DNA of 63,470 nt from Myxococcales bacterium (lineage in GTDB: Bacteria > Myxococcota_A > Polyangia > GCA-2747355). Position numbers and translations under genes: made by a program. Position 1 is the stretch's first letter; every line of letters starts with the position of its first letter. The notes beneath the pieces are model-generated. The model had not been told where the DNA came from. It did not search any database and saw nothing but the letters and a program-made list of their open reading frames with translations. The stretch covers positions 1 to 63,470 of the forward strand of contig JAGQIK010000051.1 of the NCBI GenBank assembly GCA_020431405.1. The letters run 5' to 3'. Below, piece after piece: positions 19,549 to 32,774 of the stretch.

Positions 19549-20571
19549 TCACGATCCCCGGAGGATCTCCGTCAGCACAGAGGCGGTAAAATCAACCAAG
19601 GGCATCACGCGCGGGTAGTCCATGTTAGACGGGCCGATGACGCCGAGCGTGCCCAACGGGCGCGTGCCGCCGTAAGCGGCGGCGACGATGGAGAGCCCCT
19701 CGAGCTCGCGGTCGCGCGTCTCGGCGCCGATGAAGACCTTCACGCCCTCGGCGCCGATGGTCTCGTCGAGCAGCCGCACCATGGTCTTCTTCTCCTCCAC
19801 CGCGCGCAGGAGCGACTTCAAGCGCTCGGGATCAGAGACGTTTTCGCGCACCAGATTCGTTCGCCCAGCGATCACGACCTCGTCTTCGGCAGGCTCGGCG
19901 ACGACCTCCGAGCCGAGCAACAGCGCGCGCTGCTGCAGCTCGTCGGCGAGCACCTCCTCGCGCTCGAGCTCGTGCTTGACCAGCCGGCGCACCTCGTGGA
20001 GCTCGCGACCGGCGCAGAGGTCGTTGAGGTAGCGGTGGATCTGTTCCAGCTCCTCGCCGTCAGGCTCGATGGCGACATCGATGAGCCGGTTCTGCACCAT
20101 GCCCGACGACATCACCAGCACGGCGATCATCTTGCCCGGCCGCAGCGGGATGAACTCGATGCGCTTGAGCCGCGACGTCTCGCTGCGCGGCACGAGCACC
20201 AGGCCGCACTGCTGCGAGAGGTCGCTGAGCATGCGCGAAATCTCGCGCAGCAGCGAATCGAGCTGGTGATTGGTGAGCGAGAAGCGAGCGCGGATCTCGG
20301 CTTGCTGCTCGTCGCTCAGCTCGCGCGACTTCATCAGACGGTCGACGAAGAAGCGCAGCCCCTCGTCGGTGGGCACACGACCGGCCGAGGTGTGCGGCTT
20401 GACCAACAGCCCCTGCTCCTCGAGGTCGGACATCACGTTGCGCACGGTGGCGGGGCTCTGGCCGATGCCCGCTCGTTTGACGAGCGCGCGCGAGCCGACG
20501 GCATCGCCGCTGACGATGTACTCGCGACAAATCGCGCCGAGGATCTCGCGCTCGCGTGGGCCGAGCTGCAT
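19549..20571 (-). CDS. hrcA: Heat-inducible transcription repressor HrcA
   Basis: Repressor of 340 residues that controls chaperone operons in many bacteria by binding CIRCE elements. The N-terminal winged helix is clear (LGPREREILGAICREYIVSGDAVGSRALVKR, SPATVRNVMSDLEEQGLLVKPHTSAGRVPTDEGLRFFVD-type segment). The C-terminal HrcA domain ends with the family signature (LGTLGVIGPSNMDYPRVMPLVD). The ATG lies only 6 bases after a -10-like TATACT, so the transcript may be leaderless. A CIRCE consensus is not visible upstream of hrcA or grpE, so its target here is unclear. Confidence 0.95.
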   Translation of the reverse strand: MQLGPREREILGAICREYIVSGDAVGSRALVKRAGIGQSPATVRNVMSDLEEQGLLVKPHTSAGRVPTDEGLRFFVDRLMKSRELSDEQQAEIRARFSLTNHQLDSLLREISRMLSDLSQQCGLVLVPRSETSRLKRIEFIPLRPGKMIAVLVMSSGMVQNRLIDVAIEPDGEELEQIHRYLNDLCAGRELHEVRRLVKHELEREEVLADELQQRALLLGSEVVAEPAEDEVVIAGRTNLVRENVSDPERLKSLLRAVEEKKTMVRLLDETIGAEGVKVFIGAETRDRELEGLSIVAAAYGGTRPLGTLGVIGPSNMDYPRVMPLVDFTASVLTEILRGS

Positions 20572-20577
20572 GGCCGA

Positions 20578-20585
20578 AGTATAAC
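20578..20585. promoter_or_regulatory. Shared, near-symmetric -10 element between hrcA and hemW
   Basis: Only 21 bases separate the divergent starts of hrcA (20571) and hemW (20593). They contain AGTATAAC, which reads TATACT on the minus strand (20583-20578) and TATAAC on the plus strand (20580-20585). Each hexamer ends 6-7 bases before the start codon, so both mRNAs would begin at or next to the start codon. Neither side has a convincing -35 or Shine-Dalgarno site. Confidence 0.5.
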
Positions 20586-20592
20586 TCACACC

Positions 20593-21786
20593 GTGGCCCG
20601 AGGATTCGACGACGCCTTCGGCATCTATGTCCATTTTCCGCTCTGCCGCGCGCGCTGCGGCTACTGCGAGTTCTCCGTCGTGGTGCGCGAGCAATTCCCG
20701 CACGAGGCGTACGCTCGGCGGGTCGCCGACGAGATCGCCCATCGCGCCAAGGACTACGCCGGGCTGCGCCTCGACAGCCTCTATTTCGGTGGCGGCACGC
20801 CATCGCTGTGGCCGGCGCGCGAGGTGGCGCGGGTGGTCGACGCGGCGCGCCGGGCTGCGGCCGGCGGGGCCGAGGGCATGGAAGTCACGCTCGAGGCCAA
20901 CCCAGGCACGGTGGACCGCGCGCTGCTCGGCGATCTGCGCGCGGCCGGCGTCAACCGGCTCAGCATCGGTGTGCAGTCGCTCGACGACGGGACGCTGCGC
21001 GGGCTGACGCGCCGCCACGACGCGCGCACGGGGCGGGCGGCGCTCGAGCACGCGCGCGCGGCGGGCTTCGACAACGTCAGCTGCGATCTGATCTTCGGGC
21101 TCGGCGGCCAGAGCGTCGAAGCGCACCTGCGTGACGCGCGCGAGCTTTTGGCCCTCGGCCCCGAGCACATCTCGACCTACGCGCTGACGCTCTCGCGCGG
21201 CTCGGCGCTGCGGCAGGCCGGCGGCGAGACGGTCGACGACGACACGTCTGCGGAGATGATGCAGCGCGGGCGCGAGCTGCTCGAGCAGGCGGGCTACGAG
21301 CACTACGAGGTCTCCAACTTCGCGCGGCCAGGGCATCGCTCGCGCCACAACTCGCTGGTCTGGTCGGGGCGGCCCTACGCCGGCGTCGGCGCGGCGGCGC
21401 ATGGCATGGTGCTCGCCAGGCATGTGGACGGCGACGCCGGATGGTCGCAGACGCGCATCGCCAACGCGCCCTTCGATCGCTACATGGAGGGCGAGCTTCG
21501 CGACGGTCCGCCCGGGCACGTCAGCACGGCGCGCGTCTTCGCGGTCGACGAAGCGCAGGCCGAGCAGGAGTGGGTGATGCTCGGGCTGCGCCTGCGCGAG
21601 GGCGTCGTGCGCGAGCGCTTCGCCGCGCGCTTCGGGCGCGACGTGCTCGATGACGAGACGCGGCGCCGAGCTGCCGAGGACCTGCACGACGCGGGCATGC
21701 TCGTCATCGACGACGAGCGCGTCGCGCCCACGCCGCGCGGCATCTGGTTCGCCGACGAGATGGCGCTGCGGCTGGGTCACAGGTGA
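20593..21786 (+). CDS. hemW: Radical SAM protein HemW (HemN-like)
   Basis: Radical SAM protein of 397 residues; HemW is a heme chaperone related to oxygen-independent coproporphyrinogen oxidase. The cluster motif is PLCRARCGYCEF (CxxxCxxC), preceded by IYVHFP, as in HemW. Further family motifs are LYFGGGTPSLW, TLEANPGTV, LSIGVQSLDDGTLRGLTRRHD and SNFARPGHRSRHN, followed by a C-terminal winged-helix-like domain. GTG at 20593 is chosen because no ATG is available near the conserved N-terminus; the longer upstream frame is antisense to hrcA. It is followed after 16 bases by the cysteine desulfurase gene. Confidence 0.92.
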   Translation: MARGFDDAFGIYVHFPLCRARCGYCEFSVVVREQFPHEAYARRVADEIAHRAKDYAGLRLDSLYFGGGTPSLWPAREVARVVDAARRAAAGGAEGMEVTLEANPGTVDRALLGDLRAAGVNRLSIGVQSLDDGTLRGLTRRHDARTGRAALEHARAAGFDNVSCDLIFGLGGQSVEAHLRDARELLALGPEHISTYALTLSRGSALRQAGGETVDDDTSAEMMQRGRELLEQAGYEHYEVSNFARPGHRSRHNSLVWSGRPYAGVGAAAHGMVLARHVDGDAGWSQTRIANAPFDRYMEGELRDGPPGHVSTARVFAVDEAQAEQEWVMLGLRLREGVVRERFAARFGRDVLDDETRRRAAEDLHDAGMLVIDDERVAPTPRGIWFADEMALRLGHR

Positions 21787-21802: not shown

Positions 21803-22951
21803 ATGACGATCCGCGCCTATCTCGACAACGCGGCGACGACGGCGGTCGCGCCCGAGGTGCTCGTGGCGATGAACGACGTGCACCACAACGAGCTGGGCAA
21901 CCCGTCGTCACGCCACCCGCTCGGCCTCGCCGCCGACAAGCGGTTGCGCGCCGCGCGCGAGGTCGTGGCCGGCAAGCTCGAGGCGCGTCCCGAGGACGTG
22001 ACCTTCACCAGCGGCGGCACCGAAGCGCTGGCGCTCGCGCTGCTCGGCACGGTGGGCGGCGGCGGTGGGCGCGGCGGCGCGAAGAAGGGCCACGTGCTGG
22101 TCAGCGCCATCGAGCACAGCGCCGTGCGAAACAGCGCCAAGCTGCTCGGCGAGCGCGGCTTCGAGGTGCAGTCGATCCCTGTCGACCGGCGTGGCGGCTT
22201 CGTCGAGCCAGGTATGGTGGAGGAGCTCTTGCGGCCCGACACCGTGCTGGTCGCGGTGATGCACGTCAACAACGAGACGGGCGTCGAGCAGCCGGTGGCC
22301 GACATCGCCGACGTGGTGCGTGCCGAGGCGCCGGGCGCGCTGATGGTGGTCGACGCGGTGCAGTCATTCTGCAAGCTGCGCCTCAGCCTCCCGCGCAGCG
22401 GGGCCGACGCCATCGCGGTCTCGGCGCACAAGATCAACGGTCCCAAAGGCGTCGGCGCGCTGGTGACGCGCCCCGACCTGGCGCTGGCGCCGCTGTGGGG
22501 CGGCGGCGATCAGGAGCGCTCGCGGCGACCCGGCACCGAGAACGTCGCCGGTGTGGTGGGCTTCGCCGCGGCGGTGGAGCACTTCGCGCTCGACGAGATG
22601 CGCGTGCGCCGTCAGATGGCGACGCTCTGCGACGCCGTGTGGGACGCCTGCTCGCGCGCGCGACAGCTCGGCAGCGACAACCGGCGCGTGCAATGGATCA
22701 CGACCTACGAGATCCCCAAGGCGCGCTCGGAGGTGCTGGTCAACGCGCTCGGCGCCGAGGGTGTGTTTGTCTCCAGCGGCTCCGCTTGTCATGGACGCAA
22801 GAACCTCAAGAGCCCGCTTCACGACGCGATGGGCGTTCAAGGCTCGAGCGGGCTCTTGCGCCTGTCGCTCGGGCGGCTGACCAGCGACGAAGAAATCGAG
22901 GCGGGCGCCGAGACGCTGCGGCGCGTGCTCACCAACCTCGCAGGCTCATGA
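21803..22951 (+). CDS. Cysteine desulfurase (IscS/NifS family)
   Basis: PLP enzyme of 382 residues that takes sulfur from cysteine and passes it on as a persulfide. N-terminus AYLDNAATTAVAPEVL, PLP site with SAHKINGPKGVGAL (Lys in the HK pair), and the active-site Cys loop SSGSACHGRKNLKSPL are all present. Its stop overlaps the thiI start as ATGA. This pairing suggests its sulfur goes mainly to ThiI for 4-thiouridine in tRNA, rather than to a general Fe-S operon (no iscU, iscA or regulator is near). Confidence 0.94.
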   Translation: MTIRAYLDNAATTAVAPEVLVAMNDVHHNELGNPSSRHPLGLAADKRLRAAREVVAGKLEARPEDVTFTSGGTEALALALLGTVGGGGGRGGAKKGHVLVSAIEHSAVRNSAKLLGERGFEVQSIPVDRRGGFVEPGMVEELLRPDTVLVAVMHVNNETGVEQPVADIADVVRAEAPGALMVVDAVQSFCKLRLSLPRSGADAIAVSAHKINGPKGVGALVTRPDLALAPLWGGGDQERSRRPGTENVAGVVGFAAAVEHFALDEMRVRRQMATLCDAVWDACSRARQLGSDNRRVQWITTYEIPKARSEVLVNALGAEGVFVSSGSACHGRKNLKSPLHDAMGVQGSSGLLRLSLGRLTSDEEIEAGAETLRRVLTNLAGS

Positions 22952-24126
22952 CCAACGAACAGCGCGTGGTGATCGCGCGACTTGGTGAAGTGTTTCTCAA
23001 GGGCCGCAACCGCGGCGAGTTCGTGCGGCGGTTGCGCGAGAACATGCAGCGCGCGCTGCGCGACATCTCGCCGCTGCGCCTCGACCGCGCGCAGGGCCGC
23101 ATCTACGTGCACGTCGAGGCCGAGGACGCCGAGCGCGCCGCGCGCGCCGTGCGCGATACGTTCGGCGTGGGCACCATCAGCGTGGCGCGTCCCTGCGAGC
23201 GCTCGCTGGAGGCGATCTACGAGGCTGCTGCGCTGGCGGTCGCCGAGGCGACACGCGGGCGCACGCACGCGACCTTCAAGGTGCAGACCAAGCGCCCGGA
23301 CAAGACCTTCACGCCCGACTCGATGGAGGTCAGCCGCCTGGTGGGCGGCGCGCTGCTCGAGCGCTTCGACAACCTGCGCGTGGACGTCAAGACGCCGGAG
23401 CTCGTCGTCGGCGTCGAGATCGGAACCGAGCACGCGCTGGTCTTCTGCGGGCGCGAGCAAGCCGTCGGTGGCCTACCGGTTGGCTGCGAAGGTGACGTCC
23501 TGCTGCTGCTGTCGGGCGGCATCGACTCGCCGGTGGCCGGCCACCTGATGCAGCGGCGTGGCTGTCGGCTGGCTGCGGTGTACTTCCACTCGCCGCCCTA
23601 CGTCAGCGAGCACGCGCGCGACAAGGTGCTGCAGCTGGCGCGTCGGCTGGCGCGCGCGCAGGGGCCGCTCGAGGTCGACGTGGTGCGCTTCACCGACATT
23701 CAGACCGACATCCGCGACAACGCGCGCGGCGACATGGCCGTGGTGCTTTACCGTCGCGCGATGATGCGCATCGCGTCACGCCTCGGCATCTCGCGCGGCG
23801 CGCAGGCGCTCGCCACCGGCGAGAACCTCGGGCAGGTCGCCTCGCAGACGTTGACCAACCTGCGCTGCATCAACGAGGCGGCGACGCTGCCGGTGCTGCG
23901 CCCGCTGCTCGCCTACGACAAACACGAGACGATCGCGCTGGCTCGGCGCATCGAGACCTTCGAGACGTCGATCCTGCCGCACGAGGATTGCTGCTCGCTG
24001 TTCGTGCCCAAGCACCCCGCCACGCGCTTGCCCATCGAGCTCGCCGAGAAGGCCGAGCTGGGCCTCGACCCCTCGCTGCTCGACGCCGCGGTAGAGACCG
24101 TCGAGACCGAGCGCGTTGTCGCCTGA
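22948..24126 (+). CDS. thiI: tRNA 4-thiouridine synthase ThiI (without rhodanese domain)
   Basis: Enzyme of 392 residues that modifies U8 of tRNA to 4-thiouridine. It has a ferredoxin-like/THUMP N-terminal region (residues 1-165, LGEVFLKGRNRGEFVRRL) and a PP-loop ATPase domain (LLLLSGGIDSPVAGHLMQRRG), with ATGENLGQVASQTL and EDCCSLF further on. The C-terminal rhodanese domain of E. coli ThiI is absent, as in many bacteria where the desulfurase passes sulfur directly. The start overlaps the desulfurase stop, so the two products are made together. Confidence 0.95.
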   Translation: MTNEQRVVIARLGEVFLKGRNRGEFVRRLRENMQRALRDISPLRLDRAQGRIYVHVEAEDAERAARAVRDTFGVGTISVARPCERSLEAIYEAAALAVAEATRGRTHATFKVQTKRPDKTFTPDSMEVSRLVGGALLERFDNLRVDVKTPELVVGVEIGTEHALVFCGREQAVGGLPVGCEGDVLLLLSGGIDSPVAGHLMQRRGCRLAAVYFHSPPYVSEHARDKVLQLARRLARAQGPLEVDVVRFTDIQTDIRDNARGDMAVVLYRRAMMRIASRLGISRGAQALATGENLGQVASQTLTNLRCINEAATLPVLRPLLAYDKHETIALARRIETFETSILPHEDCCSLFVPKHPATRLPIELAEKAELGLDPSLLDAAVETVETERVVA

Positions 24127-25522
24127 AGAAAGCGCGCGCGGCGCCGCACATCGCTTCGTGCCGGCGGCGCTGCTGGTCGGTCTCGCGCTGCTCGCCACGC
24201 CGCTCGCCCTCAACGAGCCCGACACGCTCTCGCGCCTCGCCATCGGGCGCCAGATCGTGCAGCGGGGCCTCGGAGCACGCGTCGACGAGCGTGGATACGG
24301 CGCGGCGAGCGACGCGCGCTGGTCCAACCCAGAGTGGCTCGGCGACCTGTTGCTGTTCGGCGTCGAGCGGGCCGGCGGCGAGCGCGCGCTGGGGCTGTTC
24401 GCCATCGCCGTCGTCGCGCTGGGCCTGCTCTCGCTGTTGCGCGCCGCCACGCTGCGCGGCGCGGACCCGTGGATCCTCGTCGCGCTGCTCGCCGTGATGC
24501 TGCCCGCCATCGCCGGACGGCTGGCGCCGCGCAACGAGATGCACCTCTACTGGCTGGCGGGCGCGACGATGTGGCTGCTGGCGCGCGGCGGCCGCCGCTC
24601 GATCGTGGCGTGCGGCGCCCTGGCGGCCCTGTGGGCGAATCTTCACAGCTCGTTCGTGTTGGGGCTGCTGCTCGTCGTCGTCTTCGCGCTCGATCCGCGC
24701 GCGCCGCGCGAGGCTCGGCGCCGGCTGTGGCTGCTCGCCGTCGCGCATCCGCTGCTGTGGATGGTCTCGCCCTTCGGCGTCTACGTAACGCTGCAGCTGT
24801 GGCGACACGTCGCTGGCGCGTCGACGCTGCGCGCGGCGCTCGTCGAGTGGCAGCCGGCGTGGCGCACGCCGCTGACGCTGCCGGCGCTGGCGCTGCTGTC
24901 GGTGGCGGCGCTGCTGTGCTGGCTGCACGGTGAGCCGCGGCGACGACCCTGGGCCGCGGCGCTGCTCTCGCTGCTGCTGGTCGCCGCCGCCCTCGCCTCT
25001 CGCCGCCTGCTGGTGTTGACCACTATCGCCGCGGCGCTGCTCGCCGCCCCGCTCGGCGCGCTGCTCGCCGCGCGCGCGCGAACGCTGTGCGTCGTGGTCG
25101 CGTTGCTCGGCAGCGTGCCGCTGCTCGCGCTAGGGCGCGGCGCGATCCGCCCGCCGCTCGCGCGGCAGCAAGCAGCCCCACCGCCGCTGGTGCTCGAGGC
25201 CTTGCGCCCCAGCGAGGCCCACGTCTTCGCGCCCTACAACAGCGGGCCGTGGTTTCTGTGGTACTGCCCGCGCGTCAAGCTCTACGCCGATCCGCGCAAC
25301 GCGCGCGGTGTCGCGCCGCTTCGCGCATACCAGCGCCTGCTGCGCGAGCCGAAACGCATCGACGCGAGCAAGACCGAGGTCGTGGTGGTCGACACGGGAT
25401 TGCCGACGTGGGGCGCGCTGCAGCGGTATCTGCAGGCGTCCGCGCGCTGGAGACGTCGCATGGTCACCGGGCGCTGGACCGTCTTCGCAGCCGTCGGGGA
25501 GACTAGGTACCGCGGAAGATGA
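24116..25522 (+). CDS. Polytopic membrane protein, glycosyltransferase-like (GT-C type architecture)
   Basis: Protein of 468 residues with about nine to ten membrane helices and a soluble C-terminal domain of about 120 residues. The first loop contains an acidic pair and DERGYGAASDARWSNPEWLGDLLLFG, and the overall shape resembles GT-C glycosyltransferases or oligosaccharyl transferases, but no family motif is certain. The frame begins at a TTG that overlaps the end of thiI by 11 bases; no better start lies downstream before the first helix. Its 3' end overlaps the stop of the minus-strand gene by 20 bases. Confidence 0.7.
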   Translation: MSPEESARGAAHRFVPAALLVGLALLATPLALNEPDTLSRLAIGRQIVQRGLGARVDERGYGAASDARWSNPEWLGDLLLFGVERAGGERALGLFAIAVVALGLLSLLRAATLRGADPWILVALLAVMLPAIAGRLAPRNEMHLYWLAGATMWLLARGGRRSIVACGALAALWANLHSSFVLGLLLVVVFALDPRAPREARRRLWLLAVAHPLLWMVSPFGVYVTLQLWRHVAGASTLRAALVEWQPAWRTPLTLPALALLSVAALLCWLHGEPRRRPWAAALLSLLLVAAALASRRLLVLTTIAAALLAAPLGALLAARARTLCVVVALLGSVPLLALGRGAIRPPLARQQAAPPPLVLEALRPSEAHVFAPYNSGPWFLWYCPRVKLYADPRNARGVAPLRAYQRLLREPKRIDASKTEVVVVDTGLPTWGALQRYLQASARWRRRMVTGRWTVFAAVGETRYRGR

Positions 25523-27356
25523 GCGGGAAAGCGATGTTCTGCGCGCTGGCGCCGTGGAAGACCCAGCGGATGAGGTTGCGCTGGAGGCAGGCCTTGAGGT
25601 CGGGGCTCTTGCCGCCGCTGAAGGTCAGGCTCACGCGGCGCACCTTGCCGCTGCCCGCGATGGCGAGGGTGACGTCGACACGCACGTTCTTGAGCGTGTT
25701 GTCGCGCTTGGCGGCGCGCTCGTAGCAAACCTTGAGACCGCGCGCGTTGCGGCGGTGCACCGCCTGCACGTCGCTGGCCTTGAGCTTGCGACCGCTGGAG
25801 TGGCTGCGCCTCTTGACCAAGCCGCTGGGTAACGCAGCGCCGGAGCCCGTGTTGCCGTAGAGCGCGAGCAGCCGCTTCTCCTCGGCGCTGAGCTTCTTGC
25901 CCTTGCGCTTGGGGCGCGTGCGACGCACTCCGGTGCGGGTCGAGTGCACGCCACGCTCGGTGGTGCGGCCGACCTCCATCGGAGGGAACGCCGACGCCAC
26001 GGCCGCGGCGTCGGGCTTGGGCGCGATCTTGGCCTGCTTGGGCTGCTCGCCGACGGTCTTGGTGGCCACCTGCGACGACCCGGTCTTCGGCGTGTCGGGC
26101 TTGCCTTGCCGGTCGAAGGCGAGGAAGTAGATCAGGATCGCCAGCCCCGTGAGCGTGCTGACGATGCCGCCCACCGCCGCGATCTTGATGCTCAGCGGCG
26201 TCTTGCTCGAGGCGGGCGCCATCGGTTGCATGGCGACGGCGGCGGCCGGTCCCACCGGCGCCTCGCTGTAGGACTGCGGCAGCACGCGCAACCCCGACTC
26301 CATCGCGGCAGCGATCTCGGGCGCAGCGGTCGCCGCCGGTGCGGGCGCCGGCGGTGCGACGGCTGGGGCGAGCGGCGGTGGCGCCGCGGCCGACATCGGC
26401 GGCGGGACCGCGGGCGCGACGGCCGGGGACGGCGTGATCGGGGGCGCGCCGAAGCCGCCGCCCGTCGAGTCCAAACGCTGCCGCGGAGCCAGCCCGCTGT
26501 CGGGTCGGCGGCTGTCGAGCGGCCCCCCACCAGCGTGAGGACTGCCAGCGTGAGGACTACCCGGCCGGGCGCCAGGCGGCAGCGACGGCACGGCCGGCAT
26601 GGGCGGCAACATCGCCTGCTGCGAGGGCTCGTTGGACCCTGGAGGCGGCGGCAGGCCCGGCCCGCCCGGCCCCACCGGGAACAGACCCGAGCGCGAGCGT
26701 GCCGAAGGTGGCGGCGGCGGGGGCGCGTAGGGCCGCAGCTCGGGGACGCTGGTGACCTCGACCCAGTCGTCGAAGCCGTCGCGCCAGCAGTAGGCCTCCT
26801 CGCCCGACTCGCTGCGCGCCTCGCCACGTTTGACGCGCGAGCAGAGCTCGGCAAACGTCATCGGGCCGTACTGATTGCCGTCGACGGCGAGGAACCACTC
26901 GTCTTCCGGCTCGCTGTCGGGCTGCGGCGGCGGCGCTAGGCGCGTGGCCTCGGGCTCGAAGCTGGAGCCAGGAAAACCGAGATCCGGCGCGGCCGACAGG
27001 TGCGTGGAGTCGTCCTCGATCTCCGGGGGAGGCGGCGCCGGACTGAGGCGGCGCGACGCCTTGCGCTTGCGCGAGGCCGCCGGCGATGGCAGCGGCGCGG
27101 GCGCGGGCGCGGCGGAGAAGGCGCCATCGAAGGCGTCGTCGAGCGAGCTCTTGCGCATCGACGGCTTCGGGGCGCGAGCCACCACGCCGCCACCACCGCC
27201 ACCGGCGGCCGCCGCTTTGCGCGCGGCAGGCTGCGCCGCCTCTCGAACGACGATGATGTTCGCGCAGTTCTTACAGCGGATTTTGAGGACCTTTCCTCGC
27301 ACCTTCTCGTCGGCGATCGAGTACTTGGTCTTGCATTTCTCGCAAACGAACTTCAT
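25503..27356 (-). CDS. Zinc-ribbon / GYF / TonB-C protein, GltJ (AgmX)-like
   Basis: Protein of 617 residues built like GltJ/AgmX of the Myxococcus gliding machinery. Residues 1-40 form a zinc ribbon with Cys at 5, 8, 28 and 31. A GYF domain lies at about 152-210 (WFLAVDGNQYGPMTFAEL). A long Pro/Ala-rich linker leads to one membrane helix at about 390-415 (IAAVGGIVSTLTGLAILIYF). The periplasmic part ends with a TonB-like C-terminal domain (about 515-617, GLKVCYERAAKRDNTL). In Myxococcus this layout links the cytoplasmic MglA switch to envelope motors. Here no other glt or agl gene is present, and the gene is last in a five-gene run. The window alone cannot show that it serves motility. Confidence 0.88.
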   Translation of the reverse strand: MKFVCEKCKTKYSIADEKVRGKVLKIRCKNCANIIVVREAAQPAARKAAAAGGGGGGVVARAPKPSMRKSSLDDAFDGAFSAAPAPAPLPSPAASRKRKASRRLSPAPPPPEIEDDSTHLSAAPDLGFPGSSFEPEATRLAPPPQPDSEPEDEWFLAVDGNQYGPMTFAELCSRVKRGEARSESGEEAYCWRDGFDDWVEVTSVPELRPYAPPPPPPSARSRSGLFPVGPGGPGLPPPPGSNEPSQQAMLPPMPAVPSLPPGARPGSPHAGSPHAGGGPLDSRRPDSGLAPRQRLDSTGGGFGAPPITPSPAVAPAVPPPMSAAAPPPLAPAVAPPAPAPAATAAPEIAAAMESGLRVLPQSYSEAPVGPAAAVAMQPMAPASSKTPLSIKIAAVGGIVSTLTGLAILIYFLAFDRQGKPDTPKTGSSQVATKTVGEQPKQAKIAPKPDAAAVASAFPPMEVGRTTERGVHSTRTGVRRTRPKRKGKKLSAEEKRLLALYGNTGSGAALPSGLVKRRSHSSGRKLKASDVQAVHRRNARGLKVCYERAAKRDNTLKNVRVDVTLAIAGSGKVRRVSLTFSGGKSPDLKACLQRNLIRWVFHGASAQNIAFPLIFRGT

Positions 27357-27434: not shown

Positions 27435-28466
27435 CTATCCGGTGATCAAACGAACCACGTGGTCCTCGATCTGCGCTCGGGTCTCCTCATCGGGGCTACA
27501 TTGCAGCGCACGCTCCCACATGTCGATCGCCTTGTTTCGGAATCCTTTGCGCTGGTAGAGGATCGCGAGGCTGCGCAGCGCCATGAAGTGCTCTGGCTCG
27601 AGGGCCACCGCCTCTTCGAAGGCCTGCATCGCCTGGTAAACCATCCCCTTCTTCTTGAGGTAAAGGACACCAAGCTGGAAATGCAGCTTGGCTGCATTTG
27701 GGTCGACGCGCAGACCCTCTTCGAAGCAGCCGATGGCGCCGTCGAGGTCACCTGACTGGAAGCGCTTCATGCCTTCGCGCGAGAGCTGCTCCGCCGAGCT
27801 GGAGAGGCTCGGCTTGTCGCGGCCTGGAGAGAACACCAGACGCTCCACGGTCGCCCATAGCTCGGTGATCTTGAACGGCTTCTCGAGGAACGCCTCGATA
27901 CCGTAGGACTCGCGCAGATCGCGCGCGATGCGCCAGCCGCGATACAGCGACGAGATCATCACGATCGGGATCGACGCGTATCGCTCGGAGCTCTTCAGCT
28001 TCTGCGCGATGTCGAAGCCGTGCACCTCGGGCAGCATCGCGTCGAGGATGATCAGATCGGGTGGCTCCGAGCGCACGATGTTGAGCGCCTCGAGGCCACG
28101 GCGCGCCTCGACCACCTCGATGCCCTTGCCGTTGAGCAAGCGCGCGATGAGGCGCCGCAGGTCGTCGTCGTCCTCCACCACGAGCACGCTGCGCAGCGGC
28201 TCGGCGGCGTCGAGCTCGACGATGTCCTCGACGATGTCGGACTCGTCGAGCACGTCGAGCCTTACCGCGGGGATGCTGTCGGTGCTGTCGACGGGGATGT
28301 CGGTGTCGCGGTCGTCGAGGTCGACGACGATGCCCTCGCCCGAGTCGCTCGTCTCGATGGCGATCTCGCTGGTGCGCACGATCTCGTCGTAGACCAGCTG
28401 GTCATCTTTGGAGCGGTCGCCTACCCCCGCGGGAACGACGTTCGACTTGTCGGTCTCGTCGGCCAT
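27435..28466 (-). CDS. Response regulator with C-terminal TPR repeats
   Basis: Protein of 343 residues. The first 90 residues are acidic (VVDLDDRDTDIPVD). The receiver domain follows at about 92-215: acidic pocket VVEDDDDLRR, phospho-acceptor Asp in LIILDAMLPEVHGFDI, switch Ser in IVMISSLY, and Lys in FLEKPFK. Residues 235-340 hold about three TPR repeats (GDLDGAIGCFEEGLRVDPNA, YQAMQAFEEAVALEPEH, NKAIDMWERALQCSPDE). No DNA-binding or enzymatic output is present, so it likely works through protein contact. It sits 78 bases before the GltJ-like gene and 43 after the Thg1-like gene. Confidence 0.9.
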   Translation of the reverse strand: MADETDKSNVVPAGVGDRSKDDQLVYDEIVRTSEIAIETSDSGEGIVVDLDDRDTDIPVDSTDSIPAVRLDVLDESDIVEDIVELDAAEPLRSVLVVEDDDDLRRLIARLLNGKGIEVVEARRGLEALNIVRSEPPDLIILDAMLPEVHGFDIAQKLKSSERYASIPIVMISSLYRGWRIARDLRESYGIEAFLEKPFKITELWATVERLVFSPGRDKPSLSSSAEQLSREGMKRFQSGDLDGAIGCFEEGLRVDPNAAKLHFQLGVLYLKKKGMVYQAMQAFEEAVALEPEHFMALRSLAILYQRKGFRNKAIDMWERALQCSPDEETRAQIEDHVVRLITG

Positions 28467-28509
28467 CTGCCCTCGACGTGACGATTCGCTGGCCGCGGCG
28501 CCGTCGGGA

Positions 28510-29211
28510 TCAGCCGAGGTAGCGCTGCAGGTAGGGTCCGTAGGCGTCGGCCGCGGGGAGGCTGGTGTCCACGACGATGCCGCTGTCCGAGAGGTGCACG
28601 CCCGCGCCGTCGCGCTGCCAGCTCGGCACCTCGGTGCGATAGTCGATGTCGTGCTGCCGCAGGATCTCTTCCTTCTCCAGCGGCCCCATGCCTTCGAGGA
28701 GCTTCGCCACCTGCTCGGGCGAGCTCTCGCGCGAGAGCACGAAGCTGCAGTAGCGGTCGAGCGCGCGCAGGTTGGCCTCTTGCCGGCGCCACATGAAGTA
28801 GCTGATCACCACCTCGGGCGCGTTGAAGGCGAAGAGGCTGCAGCCGAAGATCGCCTCGGCGCCGACGAGGCCCGAAAGCCGCGTCGAGGCGAGGCCGACC
28901 AGAAAGCACTGCAGCGCGTTGGCGTCGCTCCAGCGCCCCAGCACGCGGCGGTCGAGCAGCACCGAGAGCTCGAAGTGTTCGGCGAAAGCGAACTGCCCGC
29001 AGGCGTCGCCGCCGAGCAGGTAGGAGGCCGTTCGCACCATCATCTTGGCGAAGCGCGAATCGAAGGGCTGTGCGAAGCCGAGCTCGGGCGAGTTCAGCAC
29101 GCCGTCGAAGTCGATGCCCTCCAGACGCACCACCAACGTCCGCTCCTGTGGGATCGGCGTGGCCGGCGGTATCTGGAAGACGCGCAGGCGCTCCAGGAGG
29201 CTCTTGGTCAT
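28510..29211 (-). CDS. Thg1-like (tRNA-His guanylyltransferase family) protein with altered metal site
   Basis: Protein of 233 residues that I recognise as a divergent member of the Thg1/TLP family, enzymes that add nucleotides in the 3' to 5' direction to tRNA 5' ends. Matching landmarks run along the whole length: LVVRLEGIDF (family RIDGRxF), FAQPFDSRFAKMMVRTASYL, HFELSVLL (family SDExS), YFMWRRQEANLRAL and LEKEEILRQHDIDYRTEVPSW. The two Asp residues that bind the catalytic metals in the family are replaced: Glu31 in the first motif and Phe80 in the second, while Glu81 is kept. The SDE Ser is His79. It is therefore probably inactive as a classical polymerase, or uses an altered site. Confidence 0.75.
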   Translation of the reverse strand: MTKSLLERLRVFQIPPATPIPQERTLVVRLEGIDFDGVLNSPELGFAQPFDSRFAKMMVRTASYLLGGDACGQFAFAEHFELSVLLDRRVLGRWSDANALQCFLVGLASTRLSGLVGAEAIFGCSLFAFNAPEVVISYFMWRRQEANLRALDRYCSFVLSRESSPEQVAKLLEGMGPLEKEEILRQHDIDYRTEVPSWQRDGAGVHLSDSGIVVDTSLPAADAYGPYLQRYLG

Positions 29212-29247
29212 CGGCGCCCCAATGCTATCAGCCGCGTGCCGGATGGC

Positions 29248-31755
29248 TCAAGAATCCGCCTCGGCCCCGCCCGCGGGCGCGGGCAGCGGCGGCGGCGGCT
29301 GCACCGGCCGCATCGGGCCGGTGGGGTTGGCACGAGGCAGCCCTTGGGCCTCGATGTCGGTGTCCACGGCGGCGGCGAAGGGCTTGTCGTCCTCGTCGTC
29401 CTCTTCGAAGAGGTCGTCGGCGTCGAGCTCCTCGATCTCGTCGACGTCGAGCTCCTCGACATCGTCGTCGTCGGCTTCGGCTTCGCCCGCATCGACGGCA
29501 GCGACGGCGCCGTCAGCATCGATGGCTTCATCGGCCTCGACGGCGTCCTCGACCTCGACGGCGGCATCGTCGGTCTCGGCGGCATCGTCGGCCTCGACGG
29601 CCTCGACGGCCTCGACGGCCTCGACGGCCCCGCCGGCCTCGACGGCCTCGACGGCCCCGACGGCCCCGCCGGCGAGCGCGATCTGCGCCTCGTCGTGCTC
29701 TGCGCGCACCGAGCGCAGGTCCGCGAGGGCGCTAGCGAGCTCGGCGTGATCCTCGGATGGCGTCGGCAGCTCGGCAGGCACCGAGCGTTCTTCGGGCTCG
29801 TCGTCGGCGCGCTCGAGCTCGTCGCGCGCGCGCTCCTCGAAACCGTCTCCCTCCGCGGACGAGCCGCCGTCTTGCTCGCTCTCGAAGCCGTCGTCGCCGT
29901 CGTCGTCAGCGCTCGATGCCGCGGCCGCTGCCTCGGCTTCGTCCTCGGCCGCCTCGGTGGCGAACAGCGCCAGCGCCGCGCGAACGTCGCGCTTGGGCGC
30001 CGCGGCGGCCTTCGCTTCGTCGGCCGCCCGCACCTGCCGCGCTTCGCGCCGCGGCTCGGGCGTCACGTCGTCAGACGTCGCGGCCGCACCCTCGGCCTCG
30101 TCATCGGCCCCGGCGGCCGCCGCCAGCGGCGCTTCGCGCGGCTTGAGATCGAGGGCGGCCAACGTCGCGTCGAGGTAGCTGCGCTTGCGCTGGGGCGCTT
30201 CGCCTTCGGCCTCGGCTTCGACCTCGGTTTCGGCTTCGGCTTCGGCTTCGGCTTCGGCTTCGGCTTCGGCTTCGGCTTCGGCTTCGGCTTCGGTTTCGGC
30301 TTCGGCTTCGGCTTCGGCTTCGGCTTCGGCGTCGAGGTCCGAGGCGCCGCGGTCGAAGTCGAGATCCTCCGCCTCGTCCGAGGCCATGATCTCTTCTTCG
30401 ATGAGGTCAGCCGTGACGACCACGGTGCTGCCGGCGCCTTGGATCGGGGTCGCTATGCGCCCCGGCGCGCTGAGCGGCAGGATCGTGTGGTGTACGCCCA
30501 GCGCCTCGAGCGCTTGGCGCGTGGAGCGGCTCGGCTGCTCGATGGTTGGATCCGACAGCCCATCGTCGTCGAGCGGGCGCTCGACGCGTATGCCGTCTCG
30601 GGTGCTGACCACCTCGAGCACCTGCGCCGGATCCAGCATCTGCGTTCCGGCAGGATCCGCCTGCGGGGCGTCCTCGTCCGCTTCTGGCTGCGGCGGCGTG
30701 TACTCGCGCGGCGCGCCGGTGAGCTCGAGGTCGAGCGCCTCGTCGGCGTCCGCGCCGAACAGCGCGCCCTGGTCGAAGTCGAGCGCCTCGCTCTCGGGAC
30801 CGAGCACGGCCTCCTCTTCGAGCTCGTCGGGCTCGACCATGTCGAGCGGCGAGCTCGAGGTCACGCCGAGCAGCTTGGCCACCACGCTGCCCACGCGCAT
30901 GCGCGATCGCACCAGCGCGCGCTCGTGGCTGAAGCGCTCGAGCGCGGCGAGCATGGTGGCGGCGTTGCGGTAGCGGTCCTGCGGCGCCGCCTCGATGGCG
31001 CGCAGCACGATGTTCTCGAGGTCCGCTGGATAGCGATCGTCGAGAAACGTGGGCGGCTCGAGCTGGTCGCTGGGCCCAGGCGCGCGGCCGGTGGTCAGCG
31101 CGTAGAGCAGCGCGCCGGCGCTGTAGATGTCGGCGGCCGGATCGGGCGTGTCGGTGCGTGCGCACTCGGGCGCCAAGTACGGCGCGTGCGACGGCAAGAG
31201 CGGCTTCTCGGCGCGAACGCGGCGGCCCCCGTCGCGCAGCAAGCGCTCGGGCCAGGCGCAGCCGAAGTCGAGCACCGTCGCCATGCCTTCGAGCGAGATG
31301 AAGACGTTGCCCGGGCCGATGGCGCGATGCACGACCTTGAGCTGACGTCCGCTGTCGTCGCGATAGCTGTGCGCGTAGCGCAGCGCCTCGAGCACCTGCG
31401 CCACGATGTCGATGGCGACCTCGACGGGCAGCGGCTCGCCGCGCGTCAGCTCGAGCAACTGACGCGCCGTGCCGCCGCGAGCGCGCTCGCTGGCGACGAA
31501 CAGGCGCCCTTCGTCCTCGCCGATGTCGTAGACGTGCGCGATGTGCGGGTGCGCCAGGCTCGCGCCGACCATCGCCTCCTCGAGCAGCAGCGACGCGCGC
31601 GGGTGATCGGCGAGCTCCTGCGAGAAGCGCTTGATCACGACCTCGCGCGACATGCCGCCGCTGCCGCTCTGGCGCGCCAGCCACACCTCCGCGAGGTTGC
31701 TGCGGCCGAGGCGGCGCACGTCGCTATAGCGGCCGCGAAGGTGGCTCTTGCTCAT
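29248..31755 (-). CDS. Ser/Thr protein kinase-like protein lacking the catalytic Asp, with long acidic tail
   Basis: Protein of 835 residues. Residues 8-280 have the eukaryotic-type kinase fold: Lys42 in VVIKRF, HPHIAHVYDIGEDEGRLFVASE, Asp163 in VLDFGCA and LAPE ending at 197. The catalytic HRDxKxxN motif reads HRAIGPGN, so the base Asp is Ala145 and the Lys is Gly147. The glycine loop is also degraded (LGRSNLAEVWLA). Together these mark a likely pseudokinase. Residues 300-835 are strongly acidic and low-complexity, with dozens of Ala-Glu and Val-Glu-Ala repeats, and no membrane helix. Its ATG overlaps the deacetylase stop as ATGA. Confidence 0.85.
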   Translation of the reverse strand: MSKSHLRGRYSDVRRLGRSNLAEVWLARQSGSGGMSREVVIKRFSQELADHPRASLLLEEAMVGASLAHPHIAHVYDIGEDEGRLFVASERARGGTARQLLELTRGEPLPVEVAIDIVAQVLEALRYAHSYRDDSGRQLKVVHRAIGPGNVFISLEGMATVLDFGCAWPERLLRDGGRRVRAEKPLLPSHAPYLAPECARTDTPDPAADIYSAGALLYALTTGRAPGPSDQLEPPTFLDDRYPADLENIVLRAIEAAPQDRYRNAATMLAALERFSHERALVRSRMRVGSVVAKLLGVTSSSPLDMVEPDELEEEAVLGPESEALDFDQGALFGADADEALDLELTGAPREYTPPQPEADEDAPQADPAGTQMLDPAQVLEVVSTRDGIRVERPLDDDGLSDPTIEQPSRSTRQALEALGVHHTILPLSAPGRIATPIQGAGSTVVVTADLIEEEIMASDEAEDLDFDRGASDLDAEAEAEAEAEAETEAEAEAEAEAEAEAEAEAEAETEVEAEAEGEAPQRKRSYLDATLAALDLKPREAPLAAAAGADDEAEGAAATSDDVTPEPRREARQVRAADEAKAAAAPKRDVRAALALFATEAAEDEAEAAAAASSADDDGDDGFESEQDGGSSAEGDGFEERARDELERADDEPEERSVPAELPTPSEDHAELASALADLRSVRAEHDEAQIALAGGAVGAVEAVEAGGAVEAVEAVEAVEADDAAETDDAAVEVEDAVEADEAIDADGAVAAVDAGEAEADDDDVEELDVDEIEELDADDLFEEDDEDDKPFAAAVDTDIEAQGLPRANPTGPMRPVQPPPPLPAPAGGAEADS
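29570..29670. repeat. 9-bp tandem repeats in the kinase-like gene
   Basis: Repeated CTCGACGGC units, mixed with CCCGACGGC and CCCGCCGGC variants, coding Val-Glu-Ala and Gly-Ala-Val runs on the minus strand in the acidic tail. The copies are imperfect, so this is an older expansion than the hexamer tract at 30203-30330. Confidence 0.85.
30203..30330. repeat. Hexanucleotide repeat (GGCTTC) in the kinase-like gene
   Basis: About twenty copies of GGCTTC, interrupted by a few GGTTTC and GACCTC variants, coding an Ala-Glu dipeptide run on the minus strand. The unit is a multiple of three, so slippage changes tail length but not frame. Confidence 0.95.
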
Positions 31756-32690
31756 GCGGCCACCTCCATCAGCGCCCGGGTGGCCGAGACGACCCCGGCG
31801 CCGAGGGCCTGGAAGTCGTAGCCACCCTCGAGCACGAACAGCACGCGGCCGTCGCAGTGCTCGCTGCCGAGCTGCACCAACCGCTTCGCGATGGTAGCGA
31901 AGGCGGCGTCGTCGACGCGCAGCCCGCCGAGGGGATCGCGCTCGTGCGCGTCGTAGCCGGCCGAGACGACGAGCATGTCGGGCGCAAAGGCCGAGACCGC
32001 CGGCGCGATGGCGTCTTCGAAGCGGGCGAGGAACGTCGCGCCGTCGCAGCCCGCGGAAAGGGGCACGTTGAGCGTCTTGCCCTCGCCTTCGCCCACGCCG
32101 CGCTCCGAGGCGGCGCCGGTGCCCGGGTAGTAGCCGCCGTAGCGATGCATCGAGGCGAAGAACACGTCGCCGCGCCGGTAGAAGATGTCCTGCGTGCCGT
32201 TGCCGTGATGCACGTCGTAGTCGACGATGGCGACGCGCATGCCGCGCTGCGCGAAGGTCGCCGCCGCCAGCGCGGCGTTGCCGAAGTAGCAGAAGCCGCC
32301 CGACGCGGCGGGCTCGGCGTGGTGGCCAGGCGGACGCACGAGCGCGAAGCCGCGCGCCAGCGCGCCGTCGGCGATACGCTCGGCGAGCGCGATGCAGCCG
32401 CCGGCCGCGAGCAGGGCCGCCTCGACGCTGCCAGGGCTCATGAACGTGTCGTGGTCGAGCTGGCCGACGAGCCCCTCGGCGCCGAGCACGCGTCGGATGT
32501 AGGGCTCTTCATGGCACAGCCCGAGCTGCTCGGCGCTGGCTCGCCGCGCGTCGACGCGCTCGAAGCGCGACCACAGCTCGGCCTGCTCGAGCGCTTGCAC
32601 GCAGGCCTCGAGGCGCTGCTCGCACTCGGGGTGGCCCGCAGGAGCTCGATGCTCGAGGAAACGCTCGTCGTATAGCAGGCCTACGTTCAT
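31752..32690 (-). CDS. Histone deacetylase family protein (zinc deacetylase / polyamine amidohydrolase type)
   Basis: Zinc hydrolase of 312 residues of the HDAC/AcuC/acetylpolyamine amidohydrolase superfamily, which remove acetyl or acyl groups from lysines or polyamines. All catalytic motifs are intact: RPPGHHAE (tandem His), VDYDVHHGNGTQDIFY (Asp-His metal ligands), SAGYDAHERDPLGG (Asp ligand) and EGGYD. The ATG at 32690 (MNVGLLYDE) fits the family N-terminus better than the start 24 bases upstream. It is the first gene of the five-gene run ending with the GltJ-like gene, overlapping the kinase-like gene by 4 bases. Confidence 0.93.
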   Translation of the reverse strand: MNVGLLYDERFLEHRAPAGHPECEQRLEACVQALEQAELWSRFERVDARRASAEQLGLCHEEPYIRRVLGAEGLVGQLDHDTFMSPGSVEAALLAAGGCIALAERIADGALARGFALVRPPGHHAEPAASGGFCYFGNAALAAATFAQRGMRVAIVDYDVHHGNGTQDIFYRRGDVFFASMHRYGGYYPGTGAASERGVGEGEGKTLNVPLSAGCDGATFLARFEDAIAPAVSAFAPDMLVVSAGYDAHERDPLGGLRVDDAAFATIAKRLVQLGSEHCDGRVLFVLEGGYDFQALGAGVVSATRALMEVAA

Positions 32691-32774
32691 CACGGCGTCA
32701 CGCACGCGCGGCACCTGGGGCGCCGCACGGGACTCTGGCTGTCGTACATTGTCGGACGTGGTGCTTTACGACCA

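Follow-up and report, generated by a model that had tools for sequence, protein, structure and literature searches.

Gene neighbourhood of the locus

The stretch of DNA analysed here (the window) comprises 63,470 nucleotides of a contig from a Myxococcales bacterium. Within it, five tightly spaced genes on the minus strand encode a histone-deacetylase-family protein, a Ser/Thr protein kinase, a Thg1-like protein (TLP), a response regulator with TPR repeats and a protein combining a zinc ribbon, a GYF domain and an AgmX-type tail. The features referred to below are as follows.

19972..21786, plus strand: HemW homologue (TIGR00539 HemW)
25503..27356, minus strand: GltJ-like protein, 617 aa, with MJ0042 zinc ribbon, GYF domain and AgmX/PglI C-terminal domain
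27435..28466, minus strand: response-regulator receiver and TPR protein, 343 aa (Response_reg, E = 2e-21; TPR), directly downstream of the TLP gene after a 43-nt gap
28510..29211, minus strand: degenerate Thg1-like protein, 233 aa, palm/Thg1 fold, with E31/H79/F80 replacing Asp/Ser/Asp
29248..31755, minus strand: Ser/Thr protein kinase, 835 aa (Pkinase, E = 5.7e-23), directly upstream of the TLP gene with a 36-nt gap
31752..32714, minus strand: histone-deacetylase-family gene (Hist_deacetyl, E = 3.1e-90), overlapping the kinase start by 4 nt

The GltJ-like gene follows the response regulator/TPR gene after 78 nt and is the last of the apparent operon. Its product scored 69.7 bits against an NCBIfam GltJ equivalog cut-off of 450, and the genome contains about 20 partial matches to the GltJ model. 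The tail of the kinase (about 29500-30400) contains extended repeats of Glu/Ala (AEAEAE...) and Glu/Ala/Val (VEAVEA...), which leave a shadow ORF of 1137 aa open on the plus strand (28408-31821). The window further encodes ThiI, involved in tRNA thiolation (22495-24126, plus strand). A tRNA-repair operon was considered and rejected, since neither a polynucleotide kinase nor a ligase occurs among the window genes scanned.

A Thg1 fold with a degenerate active site

Pfam, structure prediction and phylogeny confirmed that the window protein is a member of the Thg1/TLP superfamily by fold and descent. It matched Pfam PF04446 (Thg1) just above the cut-off (E = 5.9e-7, 29.9 bits, cut-off 29.2) and Thg1C below it (E = 0.12, 13.1 bits, cut-off 26.3), the latter region being structurally present in the AlphaFold2 (AF2) model; a scan of NCBIfam gave no match. 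In a phmmer search of the PDB the protein recovered the archaeal MaTLP (5axk, 6.4e-8) and BtTLP from Bacillus (4kgk, 7.5e-6). The AF2 model, a monomer like the other AF2 models used here and built from 48 family sequences, had a pLDDT of 95.2 and a pTM of 0.91, and all 32 of its Foldseek matches in the PDB at E <= 1e-3 were Thg1/TLP structures (best E 5.4e-15, best TM 0.76-0.85), with the first match outside the superfamily at E = 0.025. Thus, both the HMM search and the structure prediction proposed in a preliminary description of this DNA placed the protein where that description had put it, inside the Thg1 fold, and a misassigned fold was rejected from the AF2 structure and its matches.

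Mapping onto BtTLP, for which the active-site residues and the guanine contacts A42 and D46 have been described (PMC3701042), located the lost residues exactly where the preliminary description had read them, with the metal aspartates D30 and D75 replaced by E31 and F80 and the activation-site serine S74 by H79. Two triphosphate-binding residues were also lost (K99 to A99 and R131 to S125), while R28 (R29), the third carboxylate E76 (E81), R147 (R142) and the guanine-contacting loop (A42 as A47, D46 as D51) were retained, as was the PxWQ motif common to TLPs. The protein therefore has neither the metal Asp pair, nor the activation Ser, nor the full R28/K99/R131/R147 set of a functional TLP.

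One ancient clade under purifying selection

When 318 genomes of the same class were searched with a profile, 99 yielded a TLP-like match, and scores together with inspected residues indicated that about 50 of these, distributed over nine family-level groups, carry the form without a metal site. Using the single protein to search genome contigs found no relative; an alignment restricted to Nannocystaceae did, and named carriers include Nannocystis exedens DSM 71, N. pusilla, Enhygromyxa salina, Plesiocystis pacifica SIR-1 and Paraliomyxa miuraensis. What had been described as a single odd copy is thus a class-wide family, although the lost polymerase site itself stands. Orthologues from the window's own family and order were 51-63% identical to the window protein, with open frames throughout.

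Motif loss was all-or-none. R28, D29, G30, S75, D76, E77, K96, R131 and R147 are present in all 23 intact TLPs, whereas the RxDG plus SDE pair is absent from every degenerate sequence; Asp letters in the D29 column of some rows of the Nannocystaceae group, f9 (e.g. L079 and L095), were discounted as alignment effects because two residues are inserted in that region and the DGR motif is missing. Outside the class, the catalytic motifs were retained in eight of eight inspected matches. In a tree of 71 sequences, a single branch with support of 100/99 separated 49 degenerate from 22 intact sequences, a split present in 100% of bootstrap trees, and addition of a MaTLP/BtTLP outgroup showed the degenerate group to be a single derived clade (SH-aLRT 100). 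This one split led us to reject separate losses in the individual lineages. Group f9 forms the most divergent branch and has no Pfam match; the AF2 model of its P. pacifica member (pLDDT 88.9) matched Thg1/TLP structures only.

The dN/dS ratio was 0.023-0.062 for close degenerate pairs and 0.13-0.42 for more distant pairs, the latter values being rough because of synonymous saturation. Ratios so far below 1 indicate that the degenerate TLP is under purifying selection. Although the weak Pfam score of the window protein and the many shadow ORFs of this high-GC genome might be expected of a decaying pseudogene or a chance ORF, such an origin is contradicted by the dN/dS values and by the conserved open frames of the orthologues, as well as by the confident full-length AF2 fold; we consider its probability negligible and rejected it. 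The pseudoenzyme status of the window protein and of its clade is well supported.

The possibility that the protein is still an enzyme, with a metal site rearranged around E31, E78 and E81 or with another chemistry, draws on the conservative D-to-E change at residue 31, found in three of four own-order copies, and on the recurrence of E or D at residues 78 and 81 in several degenerate subgroups. However, the nearest groups outside the order carry V, L, I, Q, T or S at residue 31, the D76 position is occupied by F, S, T, A, G or R in all degenerate groups except f9 and f13, and E76 of BtTLP makes no metal contact (PMC3701042). The sites drift, and the clade shows no new invariant catalytic set, making residual catalysis improbable. 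The different chemistry that the preliminary description had offered as one option accordingly found no support.

A further possibility, that the degenerate protein is the regulatory subunit of an active TLP, as a dead partner within a Thg1 heterotetramer, fits the tetrameric state of Thg1/TLP enzymes and the presence of both forms in nine genomes. It does not fit the window's own genome (95.7% complete), in which the second, intact TLP that the preliminary description suggested looking for was not found, nor most other carriers, for which our searches revealed no intact TLP, and the intact genes are located in other neighbourhoods. We regard such a subunit as very improbable. The presence of both forms in nine genomes also led us to reject the idea that the degenerate form replaced the active TLP.

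Conserved residues and a possible ligand

Binding without catalysis, which the preliminary description had suggested for tRNA or nucleotides, is the main rival to the kinase-partner reading developed below. Without Mg2+, the dead site might still accommodate a purine nucleotide, an alarmone or a 5'-phosphorylated RNA end, and this binding would switch the kinase or another partner. Consistent with such a sensor, the guanine loop (A47/D51) is retained, D51 being almost invariant across the clade, and the window protein keeps the equivalents of R28, E76 and R147. Groups f7, f66 and f67 mostly retain R131 and R147, carry Arg in place of K96 and have a new invariant Arg at the activation-Ser position that could replace the charge of the metal. 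On the other hand, R131 and K99 are lost in the window protein, D51 may be retained for reasons of fold, the Nannocystaceae lack R147 and K96 and have variable R28 and R131, and f13 lacks most of the phosphate-binding residues. Losses in these two groups imply that ligand binding is not clade-wide, and we consider a sensor possible but on balance doubtful.

A kinase gene adjoins most degenerate copies

Of the roughly 33 degenerate copies with enough flanking sequence, 21 have a Ser/Thr kinase gene immediately upstream, compared with none of the 22 intact copies. The pair occurs in five family-level groups (f1, f57, f66, f67 and f9). The window's genome, 11.2 Mb in size, encodes at least 154 kinases, a density of roughly one per 73 kb, so chance adjacency would be expected at approximately 1-2% per locus, with the reservation that related loci are not independent. 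The GltJ-like zinc-ribbon/GYF gene lies immediately or a little way downstream of the degenerate TLP in f1, f57, f66, f67 and f13, and a histone-deacetylase-family gene upstream also in f57 and f66/f67. Relatives of the response regulator/TPR gene follow the TLP in L062, L063 and L064, and a TPR-bearing gene was observed at this position only within the window's own family and order.

Gene order also bears on orthology. In the Nannocystaceae a HemW orthologue directly follows the degenerate TLP and serves as a synteny anchor: f9 loci are arranged GpsA-kinase-TLP-HemW, and the f1 locus L064 is arranged GpsA..kinase-TLP-RR/TPR-ZnGYF..HemW. This common order supports orthology across the deepest divergence of the clade.

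Several groups depart from the pattern. No kinase adjoins the degenerate TLP in f7, f13, f59 or f61, so the kinase cannot be needed everywhere, and f7, f59 and f61 have neither the kinase nor the GltJ-like gene next door. The f13 loci (L082, L083, L100 and L101) encode extremely divergent TLPs directly before the GltJ-like gene; a large protein precedes three of them, the one in L083 having carboxypeptidase-regulatory-like repeats. A TtcA-like gene lies between the TLP and the GltJ-like gene in f66/f67, and TtcA or ThiI genes lie in the vicinity of some loci (L065, L066, L089, L091, L092 and the window) without being constant across the clade.

The kinases themselves differ in catalytic potential. 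In a motif alignment covering three genomes of the window's order, the catalytic loop reads HRA in the window, HRA with DFT in L064 and HGG in L062, and these own-order kinases are predicted to be pseudokinases. The catalytic Asp is retained by the kinases of f66/f67 (HCD) and f9 (HRD); from these motifs the kinase partner should be active in most relatives, and the death of the TLP appears to be older than that of the kinase.

A proposed non-catalytic partner of a kinase module

We propose, with a probability of about one half, that the TLP was recruited as a non-enzymatic protein and serves the kinase encoded next to it, and the module of that kinase, as a partner or effector. On this reading, an ancestor deep in this myxobacterial class lost 3'-5' polymerase/adenylylation chemistry once, and the protein has since been maintained by selection for a non-catalytic job. 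It is presumably co-expressed with the kinase and may act by protein-protein contact, as the kinase's substrate, scaffold or allosteric partner, and its state could be relayed further downstream, for example to the GltJ-like protein. Since the own-order kinase also lacks its catalytic Asp, the pair there would consist of two pseudoenzymes, possibly forming a binding or scaffold module. That these genes usually adjoin a protein-kinase gene suggests that an enzyme of RNA repair was converted into a component of signalling, and the association of a class-wide family with a kinase gene points towards protein signalling; the role as kinase partner is inferred from gene order.

Several observations weigh against this partner role. 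Gene adjacency does not equal interaction; the four groups f7, f13, f59 and f61 retain the protein with no neighbouring kinase; the residues conserved in the clade are mostly core or fold residues, among which no partner-binding patch was identified; and a pure adaptor would not need the phosphate-binding Arg residues kept in some subgroups. More tentatively still than the sensor considered above, the two ideas might be combined. The clade would then be the first in the Thg1 superfamily to be recognised as one of pseudoenzymes, descended from a reverse polymerase that changed a single time, among the ancestors of part of one myxobacterial class, into a non-catalytic component of a kinase signalling module. 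In f7/f66/f67, the Arg that occupies the former activation-Ser site, beside the metal-site Asp position, might enable a purine nucleotide to bind without metal and thereby control the kinase. With regard to the preliminary description, its more general proposal of a lost polymerase site and a new role is strongly supported by the single clade, the all-or-none loss, purifying selection and the distinct gene context.

Comparison with known systems

The GltJ-like neighbour has the same zinc ribbon, GYF and AgmX/PglI arrangement as GltJ (AgmX) of the Myxococcus xanthus gliding machinery. Because it falls so far below the equivalog cut-off (69.7 versus 450 bits), it is GltJ-like and not GltJ, and a link to gliding is only a lead. 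Degenerate GGDEF and other inactive palm proteins, such as those of the LapD type, provide a precedent for a palm-type nucleotidyl-transfer domain that has no metal site and serves in signalling. The likeness is one of analogy only, as the families differ; the LapD GGDEF-EAL entry matched the window model at E = 0.06 and a TM of only 0.26.

With bacterial and archaeal TLPs (BtTLP, 4kgk/4kgm; MaTLP, 5axk-5axn; M. xanthus TLP) the window protein shares the full-length fold, the Thg1 N-terminal domain, the guanine-loop Asp (D46, here D51), PxWQ and, in part, R28/E76/R147. Unlike them, the degenerate clade lacks both metal aspartates and the activation Ser, and the window protein also lacks K99 and R131. 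The gene partners differ as well, a Ser/Thr kinase here as against the polynucleotide kinase, MACRO protein and RNA ligase to which a 2010 survey links other bacterial Thg1 genes (PMC2904730); the passages of it consulted make no mention of an inactive clade. Among open-access papers we found nothing relevant on catalytically inactive or pseudoenzyme Thg1 proteins, and a 2019 review describes 3'-5' nucleotide addition as shared by members of the superfamily (PMC6471195). A large clade, old and under selection, that lacks the catalytic metals breaks this rule, shows that the Thg1 fold has been reused and warns against annotating such genes as tRNA-His guanylyltransferase. The existence of cultured carriers (Nannocystis exedens, Enhygromyxa salina and Plesiocystis pacifica) makes the role of the kinase/dead-TLP pair directly testable. 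In sum, we rate the fold and descent of this protein as known, and its catalytic state and gene context as new.
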